Source: a virus. From it: DNA of 64,000 bases. Every line of letters starts with the position of its first letter. The first letter of the stretch is position 1. Both the position numbers and the translations under genes were made by a program. The stretch spans positions 1 to 64,000 of IMG/VR virus record IMGVR_UViG_3300023223_001973. The stretch is one strand, 5' to 3'. This document shows positions 5,730-51,809 of the stretch, in pieces. The notes beneath the pieces were generated by a model that saw nothing but the letters and a program-made list of their open reading frames with translations, had not been told where the DNA came from and ran no database searches.

Positions 5730-6326
5730 GTGGTTACTAGCTCCCTAAGTGAGGTTGGGTTTGCTATAGGGAATGGAGAGACAAGGAATGGCGTCGATCT
5801 CGGACATATCTCTCAGTATGGTGTTATCTACGGCTGTAATGCGCTATATCGCGACTTCTCTCCTGACATCCTAGTCTCTGTTGATCGTCTTATGATTGGC
5901 GAGATCATGGAGTCTGATTACTCGGGCCGCATGATCTATCGATCTCGTGAGGAGAAAGGTTGGTTGCACTCTACCTGGGAAGATAGGTCATATATTGATA
6001 AAGGGTGGTCAGCAGGCCCGACTGCTGTATGGTTGATGTGTAAGCGACATGTGAACATTAGGCGTATATTCCTAGTAGGATTTGATTTGGATAGTACACC
6101 CGGATCAGGTGGGAAAGATCATCAGAACAACATCTACAAAGGAACCGCCAATTATCGTACGGCTGATGATCCTAATGCTCCTTCAAGGAACTGGGAGAAG
6201 CAGCTCTTGCAGGTGTTTAAGGAGTTTGGGCATATCCAGTTTGTAAGGGTTGGTGGGGAGGATCCACCAATACCCTGGCGACAGTTCTCTAACGTGTATC
6301 AAAACGACCTTGATATCTTGCCTTAG
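5730..6326 (+). CDS. Rossmann-like protein of the glycan locus (DUF115/MAF-like)
   Basis: A 198-residue protein with a GTG start. The N-terminal FAIGNGETRNGVDL, GCNALYRDF and VSVDRLM segments match a family I know from phages and from flagellin or surface-glycosylation loci (DUF115/MptE-like Rossmann fold). The central WSAGPTAVWLM and FLVGFDLD segments fit a nucleotide-sugar-type fold. It opens a run of glycosyltransferase genes, which supports a sugar-related role. Specific activity unknown. Confidence 0.55.
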   Translation: MVTSSLSEVGFAIGNGETRNGVDLGHISQYGVIYGCNALYRDFSPDILVSVDRLMIGEIMESDYSGRMIYRSREEKGWLHSTWEDRSYIDKGWSAGPTAVWLMCKRHVNIRRIFLVGFDLDSTPGSGGKDHQNNIYKGTANYRTADDPNAPSRNWEKQLLQVFKEFGHIQFVRVGGEDPPIPWRQFSNVYQNDLDILP

Positions 6327-6333
6327 GGGGTGT

Positions 6334-7200
6334 ATTATTATCGTTCAGGTGCCTACCGGGATTGGAGACTTCTCTTGGGTCTATAGCAAACTTGCTTCTC
6401 TTGAGATTCCAGTGACAATAGAGGTCTGTGCCGGAGGACCTGCTCGCCTTCAACCTATAGCTGAGCTGCTTCCTCGCATTGAGAGGATGTATACTGGAAA
6501 TATAGGTTATGGTGAGCTAGCTGTGAAGCAGCTGCCTGCCGAGACAACTCGTGCTCAGTTGATGGCCTGGCCCGCAGGTGCACCTATTCCACTCTCATGC
6601 AATACCCACCTGGAGAATGGTAATCGTGTGGAGACCTGGCTCCCAGATATTCCTACCTATCACCATTACCCTGTTCTAGTCTCTCAGCAGGACATTGACC
6701 AGGCCAAGGCTCTTGTTCCCTTCAAGGACTATGTCTGTATCTATGCCTCAAGTAAGGCTACTTGTGCTACCTGGACGGGGTGGATGGGTCCTCAGTGGGT
6801 CGAGTTTATGAATCTATTCCGGGATAAGATAGCACCTATGAGCTTTGTTCTGATTGGTGCACAATGGGATGTGGATCTTGGAGTAGAGGTTCAACAGTGT
6901 GCTGCTGTTGCTCAGATACCCTTTGTTAATCTAGTGAACCTAACCAGGTTGGGTACTGCCTTAAAGATTATCAAGAACTCTCATTATATGGTGTCATTCC
7001 CGTCTGGGATGGGCATTATGTCTCATGTTATTCGTCAGCCCTGCACAATGTTCTATCCTTCTCCTCTTGTCAAGATGCTTCGTACTTTTGTATCTCCAGA
7101 GTCAGCTGCTCTGAATAGGTTTCATGAGACTATTTTCTGCCCACCTGCAGAGCTTATACAATGGCTGCTTGATGTTTATAAGATTAAGGAGCATCTATGA
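6334..7200 (+). CDS. GT9-like glycosyltransferase (probable ATT start)
   Basis: About 288 residues. The protein naturally begins with a beta strand (IIIVQVPTGIGDFSWVYSKL) typical of glycosyltransferase family 9 / heptosyltransferase-like proteins. The C-terminal half has HYMVSFPSGMGIMSHV, the usual nucleotide-sugar-binding region. No ATG, GTG or TTG sits at the right place: the only upstream in-frame ATG (6250) lies deep in the previous gene. AGGGGG at 6325-6330 is followed by ATT ATT ATC, so ATT at 6334 or 6337 is the likely start. TTG at 6310 and GTG at 6349 are less likely alternatives. Confidence 0.6.
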   Translation: MIIVQVPTGIGDFSWVYSKLASLEIPVTIEVCAGGPARLQPIAELLPRIERMYTGNIGYGELAVKQLPAETTRAQLMAWPAGAPIPLSCNTHLENGNRVETWLPDIPTYHHYPVLVSQQDIDQAKALVPFKDYVCIYASSKATCATWTGWMGPQWVEFMNLFRDKIAPMSFVLIGAQWDVDLGVEVQQCAAVAQIPFVNLVNLTRLGTALKIIKNSHYMVSFPSGMGIMSHVIRQPCTMFYPSPLVKMLRTFVSPESAALNRFHETIFCPPAELIQWLLDVYKIKEHL

Positions 7201-8051
7201 GGCCTGACTGCGTGAAGGTAGGCTATGGTGATCCACAGCATGGAATTGCTCTTTCTGTAGTGGTCCTATTTTGTGACTTTGATGATGAACAGACGAGGGC
7301 CTCGGCAACTGCTTGCCTACTGTCTGTTCGCGAGACTGCCCCCGTGGATTGTGAGATCATCTGTGTACTGAATAACGTCTCGACTGAGCTTCTTGCCTTC
7401 GTGGAACATGCTGCTGATCGTGATGGTCGCATTGTATTGATTAATCTTAGTGTAAACTTGGGCGTGGTGGCTAAGAATCTGGGTTATGAGATTGCCCAAG
7501 GTAAGCTCATCTTCTCCATCGATGGTGACGTTCTAGTTAGGGATAGGAAGGCCTTTACTGATTGTGTTACCTTTATGGAGAGCCGTAGACATATTCATAC
7601 AGCTCTGATAGGTCCATGTGGTGGTATCTTGGACAAGGAACGATGGACTGATGAAGACTGGCCTATTGCTAAGTGGGAAGAGGGCTCTAATGCCTTTGGG
7701 TATGATGATCCTATCGACTTTGGTGGTGAGGTTGCTGATCTTCATGGCATGAAGGTAGATGCCATACCCAGCTTGTTCTGGTGCTTTCGCAAGGAGGTCA
7801 TGGAGGAGGTAGGATCTCTGGACTGGAGGTTTGGTCCCTTTGTAGGATCTGACTCTGATTTTTGCTTTCGTGTTAAGGAGGCAGGATACGATATATGCCT
7901 TGTGAGAGTTCCTATTACCCATTATGGAGGTGGTGCGAGTACGCACAAGGCCTTCAAGAAGGACATTGATTTCCTAAGGGGAAGTCATATCAAGCTGCTC
8001 TACGATCTGTGGTATGAGAAGTTTGATGTGATAAGTGAGGGAGGCAAATGA
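7197..8051 (+). CDS. Family 2 (GT-A) glycosyltransferase
   Basis: A 284-residue protein starting at an ATG that overlaps the upstream TGA. It shows the GT2 order: an N-terminal SVVVLFCDF strand, an NNVS loop, NLGVVAKNLGYEIAQG, an SIDGDVLV metal-binding DXD-type motif, then FRKEVMEEVGSLDW and a GSDSDFCFRVKEAGYD acceptor-site region. It transfers a sugar from a nucleotide donor; the substrate is unknown. The signature is strong. Confidence 0.88.
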   Translation: MRPDCVKVGYGDPQHGIALSVVVLFCDFDDEQTRASATACLLSVRETAPVDCEIICVLNNVSTELLAFVEHAADRDGRIVLINLSVNLGVVAKNLGYEIAQGKLIFSIDGDVLVRDRKAFTDCVTFMESRRHIHTALIGPCGGILDKERWTDEDWPIAKWEEGSNAFGYDDPIDFGGEVADLHGMKVDAIPSLFWCFRKEVMEEVGSLDWRFGPFVGSDSDFCFRVKEAGYDICLVRVPITHYGGGASTHKAFKKDIDFLRGSHIKLLYDLWYEKFDVISEGGK

Positions 8052-8052
8052 T

Positions 8053-8385
8053 ATGAGTTTACTAGCAGTTCAACGTTTGACTGGTCGGGGCGAGATTCCG
8101 ATTGAGTTAGACTTTATGACTATTCCTGAGGCTCTTAAGGATGCTAAGGATTCGGATAGAATTGTAGTTGATGCCCGTACTATGCGGATGTTGTTTGGGT
8201 TTTGTGAGGATTGGGGGCCTCTTTCCAAGGAGAAGTGTGCTGCTCAGTATAAGAGGTTTGTAACAGCTGAGTTCTTGGATCGATGTATAAACTGTATGGA
8301 GGCAGTGGTGCAAGATGAGGCAACGAAGGAGCAAGTTCAATACTTCCTGGATCGGTTGAAAGGAGTAATGAAGGAAGAGTTGTGA
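8053..8385 (+). CDS. Hypothetical protein, 110 aa
   Basis: ATG 8053 is preferred because GGGAGG lies 8 bp upstream; the open frame extends back to a GTG at 8035. It is predicted mostly helical, with an EALKDAKDSDRIVVDARTMRMLFGF segment. No recognised domain. It follows the GT2 gene by 1 bp. Confidence 0.6.
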   Translation: MSLLAVQRLTGRGEIPIELDFMTIPEALKDAKDSDRIVVDARTMRMLFGFCEDWGPLSKEKCAAQYKRFVTAEFLDRCINCMEAVVQDEATKEQVQYFLDRLKGVMKEEL

Positions 8386-18239: not shown

Positions 18240-18264
18240 TGAACAACGTGCTCCCCCGCACGTA
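18240..18264 (+). promoter_or_regulatory. ECF-type promoter of the first sigma gene
   Basis: TGAAC 18240-18244, 16-nt spacer, CGTA 18261-18264, 38 bp before the sigma ATG. A second TGAAC at 18225-18229 precedes a CGTG (18247-18250) by 17 nt, suggesting overlapping tandem promoters. Together these would allow a phage sigma factor to control its own or its sister gene. Confidence 0.7.
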
Positions 18265-18301
18265 TGTTCTATGGACTTCTAGCCTGAAAGGATCAGTTAT
18301 T

Positions 18302-18910
18302 ATGAAGGACGAGATAGTCTCCCTAGAGGAGGCATATGAGATAGCCGCACAGCTTTGTCCCTCCATCATGAAGAAGTTGGAAATACCTTCCAACAAGATA
18401 TCCGAAGAAGATGTCATAGGACAGTTTATTACGAACTTTATTGAGAAGGGTTTTCTCAATAAGTTCAACCCCCGCGTTACTTCCTTCCGGTATTATGTCT
18501 ACATGGGCGTACGCAACGCCGCAGTCTCCATGATCCGACATCTCAAGTATGAGGTCACTTCACTGGATGCGATTACCCGTCCAGACCCTGATGGCAAGGT
18601 CTTGGACATTCCTGCACCAGAGCCTGTTCAAGAGATGATCATGAAAGGTCTGCTTGAGGAGGTTTGGGACTTCTCTTTCGGGTACGGCAAGATTGCCAAG
18701 TTGTATGGAGCTGAGGAAGACCTGATTGCCGAGTTACCATCCACTGCCCGCTCTGTTCTACAGATGCTGTTCATGAAATACAGCAAGGACGAAGTTGCCG
18801 CCTTCTTTGGGGTTACTGTCTCGACCATCAATAACGTGATCAGTAGCGTCAGAGATCAGGTTAAGGCGCGAAAGATAACACCGCAGGATTGCCTGTTATC
18901 TGCCTTTTGA
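18302..18910 (+). CDS. ECF-like RNA polymerase sigma factor 1
   Basis: A 202-residue protein. Residues about 34-82 (SEEDVIGQFITNF, FNPRVTSFRYYVYMGVRNAAVSMIRH) match region 2 of ECF sigma factors, where the F-x-P-x-x-x-S-F-x-x-Y/W motif and following helix bind the -10 element and core polymerase. Residues about 145-190 (LPSTARSVLQMLF, then a helix-turn-helix DEVAAFFGVTVSTINNV) fit region 4, which reads the -35 box. It is paralogous to the sigma at 19343. The TGAAC/CGTA promoters around it are the ECF type, so they are the obvious targets. No anti-sigma factor is recognised. ATG 18302 is chosen over the open frame back to 18248, which runs through the promoter. Confidence 0.85.
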   Translation: MKDEIVSLEEAYEIAAQLCPSIMKKLEIPSNKISEEDVIGQFITNFIEKGFLNKFNPRVTSFRYYVYMGVRNAAVSMIRHLKYEVTSLDAITRPDPDGKVLDIPAPEPVQEMIMKGLLEEVWDFSFGYGKIAKLYGAEEDLIAELPSTARSVLQMLFMKYSKDEVAAFFGVTVSTINNVISSVRDQVKARKITPQDCLLSAF

Positions 18911-19342: not shown

Positions 19343-20029
19343 ATGCCAGAAGCTGTCCAAACTACTTCTACAGGTGAAGAAGAGATTATTAAGGCATATA
19401 ACCTCGCTCAGAAGTTCGCTCCTGGGATAATTAAGAAGTTCAATCTTCAGGGTCAGATTGATCCAGAGGACATTGTTGGCCTCTTCATTACCAACTTCAT
19501 CGACAAGGGCTTCTTAGACAAGTTCAACCCCAAGGTTATGTCCTTTGATCGGTATGTCTGGCAGGGTCTTCGCAACTCAGCTATTCAGGCTGTTCGTAGG
19601 AAGAAGGAGCGCACCTCTATTCAGGCCATGGGTGGTGAGGAAGGTGACCTTGGAGACATTCTTCCTGCTGAAGCACCCAAGAGCCGGGAGTTCGTGGAGG
19701 AACTGATTGACGACATTGAGGACTTCAAGTTTGGTTATGGGAAGACTGCCATACTCATGAGTGAGCCGACGGACCCTTCTGATAAACCTGAGGTTATTGC
19801 TGAACTTCCTTCCTCGGCACGTTCCATTATGAAGATGCTCTCTATGGGCTACAAGCCCTTTGAGATAGCTCAGAAGTTTGGCGTCTCTCCGGGTACCATA
19901 TCTGGTGCTATGAAGAGGATTAAGACCGAGCTCAAGGCAGTCTATCCTGAACGCTTTGTCGAAGCTATTCTTCACATACCTGAAGGTATGACCCTGTTCG
20001 ACTCTACCTTAAAACATTTCCTTGGGTAA
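19343..20029 (+). CDS. ECF-like RNA polymerase sigma factor 2
   Basis: A 228-residue paralogue of sigma 1: the segments DPEDIVGLFITNFIDKGFL, DKFNPKVMSFDRYVWQGL and RNSAIQAVRRKKE align directly to region 2 of its sister, and LPSSARSIMKML with FEIAQKFGVSPGTISGAMKRI to region 4. The linker is about 15 residues longer and the C-terminus carries an additional 25-residue tail. Divergence in the region 2 and 4 helices suggests the two factors may read different promoters or act at different times. Transcribed from Pd, with an inverted repeat at its ribosome site. Confidence 0.85.
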   Translation: MPEAVQTTSTGEEEIIKAYNLAQKFAPGIIKKFNLQGQIDPEDIVGLFITNFIDKGFLDKFNPKVMSFDRYVWQGLRNSAIQAVRRKKERTSIQAMGGEEGDLGDILPAEAPKSREFVEELIDDIEDFKFGYGKTAILMSEPTDPSDKPEVIAELPSSARSIMKMLSMGYKPFEIAQKFGVSPGTISGAMKRIKTELKAVYPERFVEAILHIPEGMTLFDSTLKHFLG

Positions 20030-20467: not shown

Positions 20468-20980
20468 ATGGGCATGACGTTTACGGAACCAACCGTAGTC
20501 ATCAACTACAAGCCTTATGCTAAGATGATGCACTACATTCGCTGGGCCAAGGGTGAAATCTCTGGCTTCGGTGAAGCAGAGTTCAGGGACAACCACGTCG
20601 TAGTGGTTAAGTCCGTTTTCATCCTTCCTCAAGAGTGTTCAGCTGCATACACTGAGCTGACCGAAGAGGGTCTCACCGACTTTCTGTACCACTGTGCTAA
20701 AAAGGGTAAGGACCCCTCTAGCTTTCGGTTCTGGTGGCACTCACACGTGAACTTCAGCGTGTTCTTCTCCACGATTGACACTGACAACATCGCAAGGTTG
20801 GCCTCTGTTGCACCTTGGGTGTCGCTCTGTGCCAACAAGAGGGGGCACATGGTTGCCCGTTATGATGATGGTGGGAAGTCTACCCCCATGGGCATCTTCG
20901 TAAACCCTACTTCTGGCTCGCACCTAATGCGCATCTGCAGAAAGCAGATAAAGCGGATGGTCGGGCCAGTGAAGTCATAG
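20468..20980 (+). CDS. JAMM/MPN metalloprotease (deubiquitinase-like)
   Basis: A 170-residue protein with an intact JAMM zinc site: Glu30 in KGEISGFGE and H91-S-H93-x7-S101-x2-D104 in the segment beginning HSHVNF. Members cleave isopeptide bonds or trim ubiquitin-like proteins after a Gly-Gly. It is followed by an E1-like gene and, two genes on, by a ubiquitin-like protein with GG plus three residues at its C-terminus, a natural substrate for trimming. Compare BilC and Cap3 in bacterial ubiquitin-like systems. Phage tail JAMM proteins (lambda K type) are an alternative, but there are no tail genes here. Confidence 0.88.
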   Translation: MGMTFTEPTVVINYKPYAKMMHYIRWAKGEISGFGEAEFRDNHVVVVKSVFILPQECSAAYTELTEEGLTDFLYHCAKKGKDPSSFRFWWHSHVNFSVFFSTIDTDNIARLASVAPWVSLCANKRGHMVARYDDGGKSTPMGIFVNPTSGSHLMRICRKQIKRMVGPVKS

Positions 20981-21022
20981 CTCCAGAGTCACTTTGGGAT
21001 CTTTACGGTGAAGGAGAGGACG

Positions 21023-21823
21023 ATGAATCAAGCTGACTATAGCCGTCAGTCTGACCTTGTGAACATGGCTGTCTTGCAGGGCCTCCGTGCCACGGTTATC
21101 GGTGCTGGAGCTGTGGGCTCTTACTCTGCACTGGCGTTGGCCAAGATGGGGTTGGGCACCATTGAAGTCTATGATGACGACGTTGTGGCCCCGCACAACC
21201 TGCCAAACCAGTTCTTCCGCAACTCTGACACGGGCAAGCTGAAGGTGGATGCCCTTGCAGAAATTCTGGCTGACTTCACGGATGCTACGGTAGAGCCCCA
21301 TGCTGATCTATACAACGATCAGGAGTTGTATCCTGTGGTGATCGTGGCTGTTGACTCTATGGCTGCTCGCCGGGTGGTCTGGGAGCAGTTCAAGGGTTCC
21401 AATGCTCAGGTCTACATTGAGGCCCGCATGGGCGGTCAGCTCGGTGCTGTTTATACCATCCGCAAGGCTCAAGGTGTCTTGTCTGAGGAAGACAAGCTCT
21501 GGTATGAGCAGTATCTGTATGATGACAGTGAAGCCGACCCTGTGCGGTGTACCGAGAAGTCCATCATTTACAACGTGCAGATGATATCTTCTCTGATCTG
21601 CCGTGCTCTCCGTGCTGTGATCATGCGCGAGGAAGGGTACCCGAAGGAGTTTGTCTTCGACATGCACCACATGCAGACGTACTCGCAGGAGACCCTTGTT
21701 GAGGAAGAGCTGGTAGAGATTGAGGCTGACGTTGAGGACATCTTCGATGAAGATGAGGACGAGAATGACCTGGATGATGAGTTCGGTGAAGAGGACGAGA
21801 TTGAGTATGAGGTCATTACCTGA
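21023..21823 (+). CDS. E1-like (ThiF-family) ubiquitin-activating enzyme
   Basis: ATG 21023 is chosen for its AAGGAGAGG site. 266 residues. ATP-binding loop GAGAVGS (27-33), acidic VYDDDVV (49-55), then HNLPNQFFR with the conserved Arg 66 and GKLKVDAL with Lys 74 are E1 superfamily features. Cys176 in RCTEKSIIY is a plausible catalytic Cys. It would adenylate the C-terminal glycine of the Ubl encoded downstream. The last 40 residues are extremely acidic (Glu/Asp), an unusual tail that may dock the Lys-rich Ubl. Confidence 0.88.
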   Translation: MNQADYSRQSDLVNMAVLQGLRATVIGAGAVGSYSALALAKMGLGTIEVYDDDVVAPHNLPNQFFRNSDTGKLKVDALAEILADFTDATVEPHADLYNDQELYPVVIVAVDSMAARRVVWEQFKGSNAQVYIEARMGGQLGAVYTIRKAQGVLSEEDKLWYEQYLYDDSEADPVRCTEKSIIYNVQMISSLICRALRAVIMREEGYPKEFVFDMHHMQTYSQETLVEEELVEIEADVEDIFDEDEDENDLDDEFGEEDEIEYEVIT

Positions 21824-21845: not shown

Positions 21846-21863
21846 TAAGTAGTAGGAGAGGTT

Positions 21864-23141
21864 ATGGCAAGACGCAGTAATCCACATGAAGCCTTTCAAA
21901 ACTTCCTGAATGAGCAGGAGAGGGCTCGCTTGCGTCTTAACGATACTCCGGAAGCTGTTGAGGAAGATCAGCTCATAGAGATGGAAGACATGGACTCTGC
22001 TGTCACTGGAGGTACTTCGTCAACGACGATCCGGGTAGAGATCAATGATGGTACGGATGCTACCTTCTCGATGCGAGAGGTTACTCCTACGCCCGCAACG
22101 CGCCCTACTCAGGCTGAGGCCCGGAGAGCTCGACGCCGCCGCCTTATTGGTAGTAATCCTCCTACCCCTCGTAGGCGACGCCGCCGCCCTCGTCCCGTTG
22201 CAGACCCGACTGAGAATGAGGGGAAGGGTAGGTCGAAGCATAAGATCTTTCTGGACCCGTACAAGGACCTTTTGCCACGCGAGTTAAAGCGTAAGGGTAA
22301 GAAGTTCTTCAAGACTATTCTGTTCTCCTCTAAGCTATGGGAACGGGTAGAGTGGTACTGGCGCTACATGGCCGGTAAATCCTATCAGGGTAAGAAGTCC
22401 CGGGATACATCGGTACAGCCCTGGGTTGCCATGTTGGGTGAGAAGGATGGGGTGGTCTCTCGCTTTGTCAAGGCGGACACTGGTAGCCAAGGTCAGCATG
22501 GTGGCTGCTGGAACATGCCCGATCTGACGATTGATGAAATGACGTATGCCGCTGTAAAGCTGGCAGAACGTGGTTACTCTCTGGTTGGAGTGATTCGGGT
22601 AGGCCGGTTTGAGTTGGATGAAGCGGTAGGACTTCGCGGCCCGGCACTTCAAGAGTTTGCACAACAGGGAGCCAACTTCTTCATGCTCTCGGTAGGCATT
22701 GAGGGAGCATGCGTTGAATGTTGGGACCTTGCCAAGCGTACTATAGTTGAGCACAACTATCGTGTTTTAGCCCCGGGTGAGAAGCCCACAGAAGAGGAGA
22801 AGCGTCATGGCCAAGGAACTGAAGAAGGCAAAGAAGTCGAAGAAGGTCAAGAAGAAGTCGAGCGGCAGCTCGGAGCTGGTGCAGTCGGGAGGCATCCGAG
22901 TGATGCTGGTCAAGCTGGCGGAGCCGATGAAGGTGGCGAACCTGCAGAGGGCGTGCTCCCTCAGGGAGTTCCTGGATCGTCGGAACATGCAGCTGAGCCC
23001 GAGCATCCGGGTGAACCGGAAGGTCCGGAGCGGGGACTATGTGCTTCAGGACAACGACATCGTGACTCAGATCACCAAGGTCAGCGGCGGGAACGTGAGC
23101 TGACCGATGCGGAAAGGGCGCTGTGGGGCATCATGGAGTAG
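21864..23141 (+). CDS. Degenerate JAMM-like protein with basic linker; C-terminus overlaps the Ubl gene
   Basis: A 425-residue frame. Residues 1-125 are disordered and contain a strongly basic run (ARRARRRR and PRRRRRRPRP). Residues about 185-300 follow the JAMM fold plan (VAMLGEKDGVV, RGYSLVGVIRVGRFELDE, FAQQGANFFMLSVG, CWDLA) but RVGRF stands where H-x-H-P should be, so it should be catalytically dead. From about residue 314 the frame runs through the whole Ubl gene in another frame with low-complexity Glu/Gly-rich sequence, then ends in a normal-looking LTDAERALWGIME after the Ubl stop. It may be an adaptor or scaffold, or an E2-like partner. Assignment to JAMM is by pattern. Confidence 0.6.
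   Translation: MARRSNPHEAFQNFLNEQERARLRLNDTPEAVEEDQLIEMEDMDSAVTGGTSSTTIRVEINDGTDATFSMREVTPTPATRPTQAEARRARRRRLIGSNPPTPRRRRRRPRPVADPTENEGKGRSKHKIFLDPYKDLLPRELKRKGKKFFKTILFSSKLWERVEWYWRYMAGKSYQGKKSRDTSVQPWVAMLGEKDGVVSRFVKADTGSQGQHGGCWNMPDLTIDEMTYAAVKLAERGYSLVGVIRVGRFELDEAVGLRGPALQEFAQQGANFFMLSVGIEGACVECWDLAKRTIVEHNYRVLAPGEKPTEEEKRHGQGTEEGKEVEEGQEEVERQLGAGAVGRHPSDAGQAGGADEGGEPAEGVLPQGVPGSSEHAAEPEHPGEPEGPERGLCASGQRHRDSDHQGQRRERELTDAERALWGIME
22807..23103 (+). CDS. Ubiquitin-like beta-grasp protein with C-terminal GG
   Basis: 98 residues from ATG 22807, with GAGGAG 7 bp upstream. Residues 1-20 are almost all Lys/Ala/Ser. From residue 28 the pattern is ThiS/MoaD/ubiquitin-like: IRVMLVKL, a helix around SLREFLDRRN, SIRVNRKVR, then YVLQDNDIVTQITKVSGG. 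Gly94-Gly95 is followed by NVS, so maturation by a protease such as the upstream JAMM enzyme would expose the GG for E1 activation. The sequence is GC-richer than its surroundings and is fully nested inside the preceding ORF. Confidence 0.8.
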   Translation: MAKELKKAKKSKKVKKKSSGSSELVQSGGIRVMLVKLAEPMKVANLQRACSLREFLDRRNMQLSPSIRVNRKVRSGDYVLQDNDIVTQITKVSGGNVS

Positions 23142-23170
23142 GATATCCATGGTGTCCCCTCCTTTCCTTT

Positions 23171-23195
23171 TGAACCTCTTGCCTTCCCTTGCGTA
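23171..23195 (+). promoter_or_regulatory. ECF-type promoter Pg (TGAAC-N16-CGTATTATAAG)
   Basis: TGAAC 23171-23175, 16-nt spacer, CGTA 23192-23195. The next ATG is only 9 nt after the -10 box and no ribosome site fits between, which predicts a leaderless or nearly leaderless mRNA. Unlike most others it does not overlap a stop codon. Confidence 0.75.
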
Positions 23196-23203
23196 TTATA
23201 AGT

Positions 23204-50318: not shown

Positions 50319-51809
50319 ATGAAGAATAATAACGAAGCTATTGCGGCAGCAGTACAGAGTCGCATGGATGAGATGACGAACCGTCGTTCAGCTCTGGTTA
50401 ATAGCTGGGCCAAGTACGTCAACGCCGTGGATACCTACGTCAAGGAGAAGCGGGGTAACTCCCTGTCGGACTGGGAGAAGATGAACATCGCCCAGTGTCT
50501 CGAAAACGCTCTTATTGAGGGTGGGCTTCGCCAGAATGCCCTGTTCGAGACGACCTTCGCCGACAACATCACCTTCCTGGGCATTCAGCTGCCCGTGATT
50601 GCTGCCTTGCTGCCGTCTCTCGTGCTGAACGAGATCGGCATGGTGCAGGCTCTGGATCGCCGGCAGGGTGCGGTGTTCTATCTGGACCTGCAGTATGGTA
50701 CCACGAAGGGTAACGTGGCCTCCGGAACGGACATGATCAACGCCCAGACGGGCCATGATCGGACCACGCAGGGTCGGAGGTTTGCTACGAACCGAATCAA
50801 TCAAGAAGCCCTCGGCACTGGTGACGGATCGACGGCCACCTTCGCCGGGACTCTGGACTTCAAGCCCGTGAGAGTAGATGGTGACGTCACAGTGCTTCCT
50901 GATGGCGCCATTTCGATCACTGATGGTCTTGAGACCTTCACGGACTCCACGGGGAGTGGGACGCTCACTGGCGACCTTGGTGGCACGGGTACCATCACAT
51001 ACGCCACAGGCGTGTTCAGCGTCACCTTTAACACCGCTCCTGTGTTGGCTGCCGTTGTCTCCGCGTCCTACCGCTTCAACATGGATCGGGATACGACCGG
51101 GATCGGTGAGGTCAACGTCTCGATGCGGTCCGAGAATATTACCGCTGAGGACTTCAAGCTGCGGGCAAACTTCTCCCTGGGTGCAGCCATTGACCTGGAG
51201 AAGGCACATGGGCTGAAGTTGGAGTCCGAGCTGGTCAAGTTCCTGGGTGGAGAGATCAAGTTCGAGATTGACCACTTGGGTATCGACGTGATCAGGGAAG
51301 CTGCGGAAGGGGCCAATGCAGCCACGGCGGTGGGTACCTGGACCGCTACCCCGACCGATGGACAGGAATGGCTCTGGAAGAAGTACGAGTTCAACGACCA
51401 GATCGAAAAGGGCTCGAACTTCATCTTCGCCAAGACGTTGCGCGGGATGGCGACCTTCATCCTATGCGGAAACAACGTGGCGCGGGTATGCAAGCAGCTG
51501 ACCCCGCACTTCAAGGCAGCCCCGGGTCTGGACAAGCAGAAGCCCACGGGCCCGATGGTTATCGGCACACTCGACGGCCGCACCGTGGTTCAGGACCCCT
51601 TCCTCCCGATCAACCGGTACTACCTGGGATTCAAGGGTGACAGTTACCTGTTCTCCGGCTTCATATATGCCCCATACATTCCGCTGTTCGCAACCCCCAC
51701 CCTGGTAACCGCTGACACCCTTGCCCAGAAGGGCTTCTTCAGTGCTGCCGGCTTCAAGATGATTAATGAAGGTCTGTACAACTTCGGCGATATCGCAGGC
51801 CTGCTCTAA
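50319..51809 (+). CDS. Major capsid protein (gp23-like)
   Basis: 496 residues, AAGGAG site. HK97-fold signs: N-terminal helical arm, FLGIQLPVIAALLPSLVLNEIGMVQ, long strand region with an Ig-like or E-loop insert rich in Gly/Thr/Val (residues 165-250), then NFIFAKTLRGMATFILCGNNVARV and a C-terminal GFFSAAGFKMINEG segment. Codons are noticeably GC-ended compared with neighbours, fitting the most abundant virion protein. N-terminal processing by the protease is expected. Followed by a strong terminator. Confidence 0.88.
   Translation: MKNNNEAIAAAVQSRMDEMTNRRSALVNSWAKYVNAVDTYVKEKRGNSLSDWEKMNIAQCLENALIEGGLRQNALFETTFADNITFLGIQLPVIAALLPSLVLNEIGMVQALDRRQGAVFYLDLQYGTTKGNVASGTDMINAQTGHDRTTQGRRFATNRINQEALGTGDGSTATFAGTLDFKPVRVDGDVTVLPDGAISITDGLETFTDSTGSGTLTGDLGGTGTITYATGVFSVTFNTAPVLAAVVSASYRFNMDRDTTGIGEVNVSMRSENITAEDFKLRANFSLGAAIDLEKAHGLKLESELVKFLGGEIKFEIDHLGIDVIREAAEGANAATAVGTWTATPTDGQEWLWKKYEFNDQIEKGSNFIFAKTLRGMATFILCGNNVARVCKQLTPHFKAAPGLDKQKPTGPMVIGTLDGRTVVQDPFLPINRYYLGFKGDSYLFSGFIYAPYIPLFATPTLVTADTLAQKGFFSAAGFKMINEGLYNFGDIAGLL

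Follow-up and report, generated by a model that had tools for sequence, protein, structure and literature searches.

A gene for a ubiquitin-like protein (Ubl) lies entirely within the 3′ end of a longer open reading frame in the 64,000-nt stretch of viral DNA analysed here (the window, positions 1 to 64,000 of the 99,693-base IMG/VR record IMGVR_UViG_3300023223_001973, possibly a fragment). We consider it likely that this nesting represents two real, adjacent genes of one operon, the upstream of which would have lost its stop codon near the start of Ubl, so that its frame ran on through the Ubl gene.

The overlap and the two proteins

The Ubl ORF (22807–23103, + strand) runs from ATG to TGA and encodes 98 aa, while the outer ORF (21864–23141, +) runs from ATG to TAG and encodes 425 aa, Ubl being in the +1 frame relative to it. 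A ribosome-binding site precedes each start codon, namely AGGAG at 21854–21858 (+) for the outer ORF and GAGGAG at 22794–22799 (+), inside the outer coding frame and 7 nt from the ATG, for Ubl. These coordinates confirm a nested +1 gene with its own GAGGAG site, as had been proposed in an earlier note made from the sequence alone. That note also described an outer frame open for more than 110 codons and closing after the Ubl stop, which agrees with the 111 residues that the outer frame reads without a stop between the first base of Ubl and its own stop codon at 23139–23141, 38 nt 3′ of the Ubl stop. The outer protein ends in ELTDAERALWGIME, and its last segment past Ubl (23104–23141, +) is G+C-rich and reads TDAERALWGIME followed by TAG. 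GC content is 59.9% over Ubl and 63.2% over 23104–23141, compared to 52.3% and 45.9% in the flanks (22700–22806 and 23142–23202), so that the overlap is GC-richer than its surroundings, as first noticed, and the G+C-rich block extends past the Ubl stop as far as the outer stop. The other two frames close at 22768 (TAG) and 22778 (TGA), 26–36 nt 5′ of the Ubl ATG and adjoining runs of TTTT, CCCC and GGG, and the Ubl frame is open from 22771 onward. The overlap is known from one metagenome contig.

Based on a structure model, fold comparison, family profile and alignment, the nested Ubl is a real gene, with a predicted beta-grasp fold closest to MoaD, ThiS, TtuB and SAMP. In a model based on 20 aligned Ubls (the window Ubl and 19 from phage loci), the protein has a basic N-terminal tail (residues 1–28, net charge +8), a predicted beta-grasp core of strand-strand-helix-strand-strand (residues 28–95, pLDDT about 90) and a GlyGly at 94–95 followed by Asn-Val-Ser. 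Its nearest structures were Mth1743, MoaD, TtuB, Urm1, SAMP1 and ThiS (Z 7.4–10.0, most over residues 26–95), and residue 95, the second Gly of SGG, falls at the C-terminal end of these carriers, with Asn-Val-Ser left over. The window Ubl thus resembles MoaD, ThiS, TtuB, SAMP1 and Urm1 in predicted fold over residues 26–95, in its alignment to Gly95 and in having an E1 partner, but differs from them in its three residues after GlyGly and its basic N-terminal tail. A profile of phage and metagenome-assembled genome (MAG) Ubls built without the window Ubl matched it at E=2.2e-5 (the window row was removed in each round, and the last round comprised 162 ORFs at E<1e-3, the window Ubl among them). 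Earlier profiles were weak (E=0.011 from five seeds, E about 8 for enlarged versions), and a clear match came only from the wider family profile including the phage contig L102, described below. Together, model and profile uphold the initial identification of this ORF as a Ubl.

Sequence and profile analysis divide the outer protein into a charged N-terminal part, a single D domain and the 111-aa acidic tail in the overlap (19% Gly, 19% Glu, net charge −16). The D domain (22311–22787, +) displays a GC-x-x-MP...T... motif and is related, by alignment and by a profile built from L102 only, to six tandem paralogs in that contig. For this profile of the six L102 copies, the outer ORF was the best non-self match (E=1.8e-4, 20.8 bits), ahead of a next match at 16.9 bits, and D matches numbered six in the L102 record and one in the window phage. 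The domain had no match among Pfam, PHROG, NCBIfam and PADLOC models or PDB sequences, so that the label of “adaptor” originally given to the outer protein stays putative. A degenerate E2 (HGGCWN) was considered, and profile and motif comparisons gave it no support. By eye, the D domain is suggestive of a catalytically dead JAB; an hhalign comparison with JAB was co-linear over 128 columns at a probability of only 6%, and a larger JAB profile had no match to D. The domain occurs in a cassette variant without an adjacent E2, and a role as JAB partner or substrate adaptor would be our guess.

The operon and its relatives

The window operon has the order JAB-E1-D-Ubl. Its first gene (20468–20980, +) encodes a 170-aa JAB/JAMM metalloprotease-like protein, recognized by alignment and by a phage JAB profile that includes this protein; the JAMM set of residues (E30, H91, H93, S101 and D104) is invariant in a 9-member alignment, and the score against Pfam Prok-JAB is 15.1 bits, under the 25-bit cut-off. 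The second gene (21008–21823, +) encodes a 271-aa E1/ThiF-like adenylating enzyme (Pfam ThiF E=2.6e-21, and E1 alignments) with GxGxxGS and DxD motifs, an acidic C-terminal tail and a cysteine, C181, invariant in two E1 alignments (A1 and A5). No match to an E2 signature (HPH...C(L/W)G) turned up across the 99,693 bases of this possibly incomplete record. With an E1-like enzyme, a JAB with JAMM residues and a predicted beta-grasp Ubl with GlyGly near its C-terminus, this operon is a permuted variant of the Ubl-E2-JAB-E1 cassette seen at many phage E1 loci. From what is known of the family, JAB would cut Ubl behind GlyGly and so remove its last three residues, E1 would adenylate the glycine thus freed, and activated Ubl would then be attached to targets or serve in sulphur transfer. 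Modifiers of the SAMP/TtuB type are conjugated by E1 and Ubl without an E2. Promoter and terminator scans yielded sites no more numerous than in shuffled sequences. Two sigma-factor-like proteins are encoded just upstream of the operon, at 18248–18910 and 19343–20029.

Searches with E1, and then with JAB and E1 alignments, retrieved many viral-contig loci as well as 13 in bacterial genomes. When loci with distinct E1s were tallied (198 with the window included, many of them cut by contig ends), the order was Ubl-E2-JAB-E1 in 61, Ubl-JAB-E1 in 25 and JAB-E1 in 52, with JAB-E1-D-Ubl found in two, the window and L102. Single-protein scans of IMG/VR with Ubl, the outer protein and E1 returned no relatives, and the outer protein had no match in a phage collection and bacterial genomes. 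A 107-kb relative identified by its capsid protein (G001, 54% identical) had no match to E1, Ubl or the outer protein.

L102 (IMGVR_UViG_3300001580_000006) is a 223-kb phage contig. Its E1 (48% identical) and Ubl (38% over 66 aa, E=9e-8) are the closest found to those of the window, and their identical arrangement points to shared operon ancestry. Between E1 and Ubl, where the window has one D gene, L102 has six in tandem (132–184 aa, 5807–8367), a lineage-specific expansion. Between the end of the last copy (8367) and the first base of Ubl (8385) there is a 17-nt gap and hence no nesting, and the frame of this last copy meets several stops at once across Ubl. In the alignment, D homology gives out close to the start of the window Ubl, which, with the L102 D protein stopping before Ubl, places the 111-aa tail of the window protein beyond the normal end of the family. 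A shorter outer protein in related phages, one of two options offered in the earlier note, is thus what L102 displays, while the other was true overprinting, whose suggested link between the stoichiometries of adaptor and modifier gained no evidence. The same note had looked to outer-frame stops over Ubl in close relatives as an argument against overprinting: such stops are present in L102, close relatives were not found, and at 38% (Ubl) and 48% (E1) identity the comparison holds only at that distance. The L102 Ubl ends in SGG plus residue(s) and is without a basic N-terminal tail. Unlike the window, the L102 record also has an E2-like match elsewhere (137178–137540, about 23 kb from the cassette); the window capsid protein had no match in L102.

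Several features of the broader family are also of note. E1s of this type are found in MAG contigs labelled Myxococcales, Cyanobacteria, Paceibacterota and Saccharibacteria (L165–L174), as well as in crAss-like, Flavobacterium and Xanthomonas phages (L002–L007), with a JAB in L003–L007 and an E2-like motif in L002–L006. In L002, no JAB was seen and the Ubl-like protein already ends in GG. The JAB gene appears to be in two pieces in L047, L083, L094 and L005 (2659–3012 and 4007–4951); in the last of these, the second piece starts at the HSH motif, with a minus-strand ORF separating it from the first, a layout that suggests an intron or a different kind of insertion at the codons of the active site. 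In L057, two E2-like genes (680–1180 and 1475–2614) stand close together in one cassette.

Codon usage and the origin of the open frame

Ubl codons in the window rarely end in T (5/98) or A (4/98), for a GC3 of 0.90–0.91. When Ubl residues were held fixed and synonymous codons redrawn, the outer frame was open in 0/20,000 draws at phage-average usage, with a probability of 0.005 at the usage of the capsid gene and of 0.15 at that of Ubl itself. Across 124 distinct related Ubl genes, an outer-type frame was open in 3/7 of those at GC3 ≥0.80 and in 0/117 of the others, which indicates that a read-through frame can continue by chance where the Ubl is G/C-ending. Three of the 124 (L167, L168 and L173, all from bacterial MAG contigs) sit inside a longer same-strand ORF in another frame, as given by mechanical ORF calls. 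Over the other plus-strand predicted genes of the record, 28/20,339 windows of 98 codons were open in that frame, all of them from two genes, and in the major capsid gene (50319–51809, GC3 0.74) the same relative frame stays open for a run of 122 codons.

Other aspects of codon usage count against a simple stop loss and fit selection on the outer frame or a foreign Ubl. T-ending codons are rarer than capsid-gene usage predicts (15.1 expected, P=0.0009), none of the 27 sites at which a possible T would create an outer stop carries one (5.3 expected on the same usage, P=0.0023), and GC3 is 0.26 above that of the JAB gene, a Ubl-minus-E1/JAB difference above 0.2 being seen in 1/122 of the family. 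The extension of the G+C-rich block to the outer stop is a further point against stop loss. A-ending codons are unremarkable under capsid-gene usage (P=0.18), and once a rule of no outer stop is added to this usage, T3 rises to P=0.044 (G3, P=0.012), such that capsid-type usage and an open outer frame together nearly explain the Ubl codons. The L102 Ubl is also G/C-ending though non-nested (GC3 0.73, T3 0.22, next to D genes at GC3 0.32–0.39); an overlap would be expected to deplete T further, as is seen in the nested Ubl, judging from this one comparison. Low T3 as proof of an overlap constraint is weakened by a 98-codon stretch of the capsid gene with 5 T-ending codons and by low-T3, G/C-ending Ubls elsewhere. 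We also rejected codon bias for high expression as a general rule for these Ubls, the mean GC3 difference from E1/JAB being 0.008 (n=122).

True overprinting under selection, in which a functional outer tail would, for example, pair its acidic start with the basic N-terminal tail of Ubl while dual translation couples the amounts of both proteins, appears rather unlikely. It would fit the scarcity of T, in particular at stop-making sites, the outer frame remaining open to a stop beyond Ubl, the opposite charges of the two tails and the absence of the basic one from the L102 Ubl; this charge complementarity, however, arises because AAG runs are read one base out. Both frames are open over the overlap, as in a functional overprinted pair, but the overlap is common to no relative, since in the sole (and distant) D-bearing one the D protein ends before Ubl, open frames are frequent among G/C-ending Ubls, and the single-sequence model of the outer protein, of low confidence and unusable (pLDDT 42), is mostly coil. 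A more specific version, with an acidic, disordered tail overprinted on the codons of the Ubl basic tail to form a complementary, perhaps docked pair in which translation of one frame tunes the other, seems to us quite doubtful. Recent gain of Ubl from a G+C-rich source, landing in the end of the outer gene and bringing an open frame through donor codon usage, is another unlikely origin. Such a donor would account for the Ubl codon usage, including AGC for 7/12 serines and GCG for 3/5 alanines (9% and 7% in the phage), and a comparison with L021, whose Ubl directly follows E1 with a GC3 of 0.85, is also in its favor, yet the closest Ubl and the closest E1 belong to one operon, arranged as in the window.

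An assembly or sequencing error, with a base missing or added near 22760–22778 (TCGTGTTTTAGCCCCGGG) and a true outer stop at TAG 22768 or TGA 22778 as in L102, is improbable: the position of these two stops just ahead of the Ubl ATG, D homology in frame up to about that point and the short D-Ubl gap of L102 are all as expected from it, but it leaves the 111-codon open outer frame unexplained. Least credible is a +1 frameshift fusing the outer protein and Ubl, for while the relative frame and the opening of the Ubl frame from 22771 would allow it, there is no stop at the putative shift site, no slippery site recognized by eye, and Ubl has its own Shine-Dalgarno site and ATG.

We thus favor stop loss, given that L102 shares the gene order yet has a D protein ending before Ubl, and given the open frames in G/C-ending Ubls and in the capsid gene; the relative behind this reading is a single, distant one. 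Under stop loss, the frame of the upstream D gene would cross the Ubl gene to the next stop, Ubl would be made from its own Shine-Dalgarno site, and the outer tail would be a lineage-specific, acidic by-product, probably disordered, which is tolerated and may be under light selection. Consistent with this, Fonseca et al. 2013 (PMC3887535) propose that selection is not required to explain long phase-1 overlaps and that these arise more often when the upstream gene is extended at its 3′ end.

Comparison with known systems and significance

Complete nesting in the +1 frame is also seen in phage lambda, where Rz1 lies wholly inside Rz and the nesting is functional and recurrent, whereas that of the window is found in no relative. 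Bacterial operons with Ub-like, E2, JAB and E1 genes were predicted by Iyer, Burroughs and Aravind 2006 (PMC1779556, class 6 of the table), with JAB proposed to free the Ub-like C-terminus; the window has the same enzyme set, without a recognizable E2 and with a D domain in addition. For phages, that paper describes Ubl-JAB pairs in tail genes of lambda/T1-like phages. A search of open-licence PMC literature found no paper plainly devoted to phage ubiquitin-like cassettes.

If both frames are made into protein, the window would hold a complete gene for a cellular-type modifier nested in a gene of its own pathway, and provide a clear case of the birth of a long same-strand overlap by stop loss beside a G/C-ending gene. 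The wider context may matter more, namely that many phage contigs, those of crAss-like and Flavobacterium phages among them, carry Ubl/E2/JAB/E1 cassettes.
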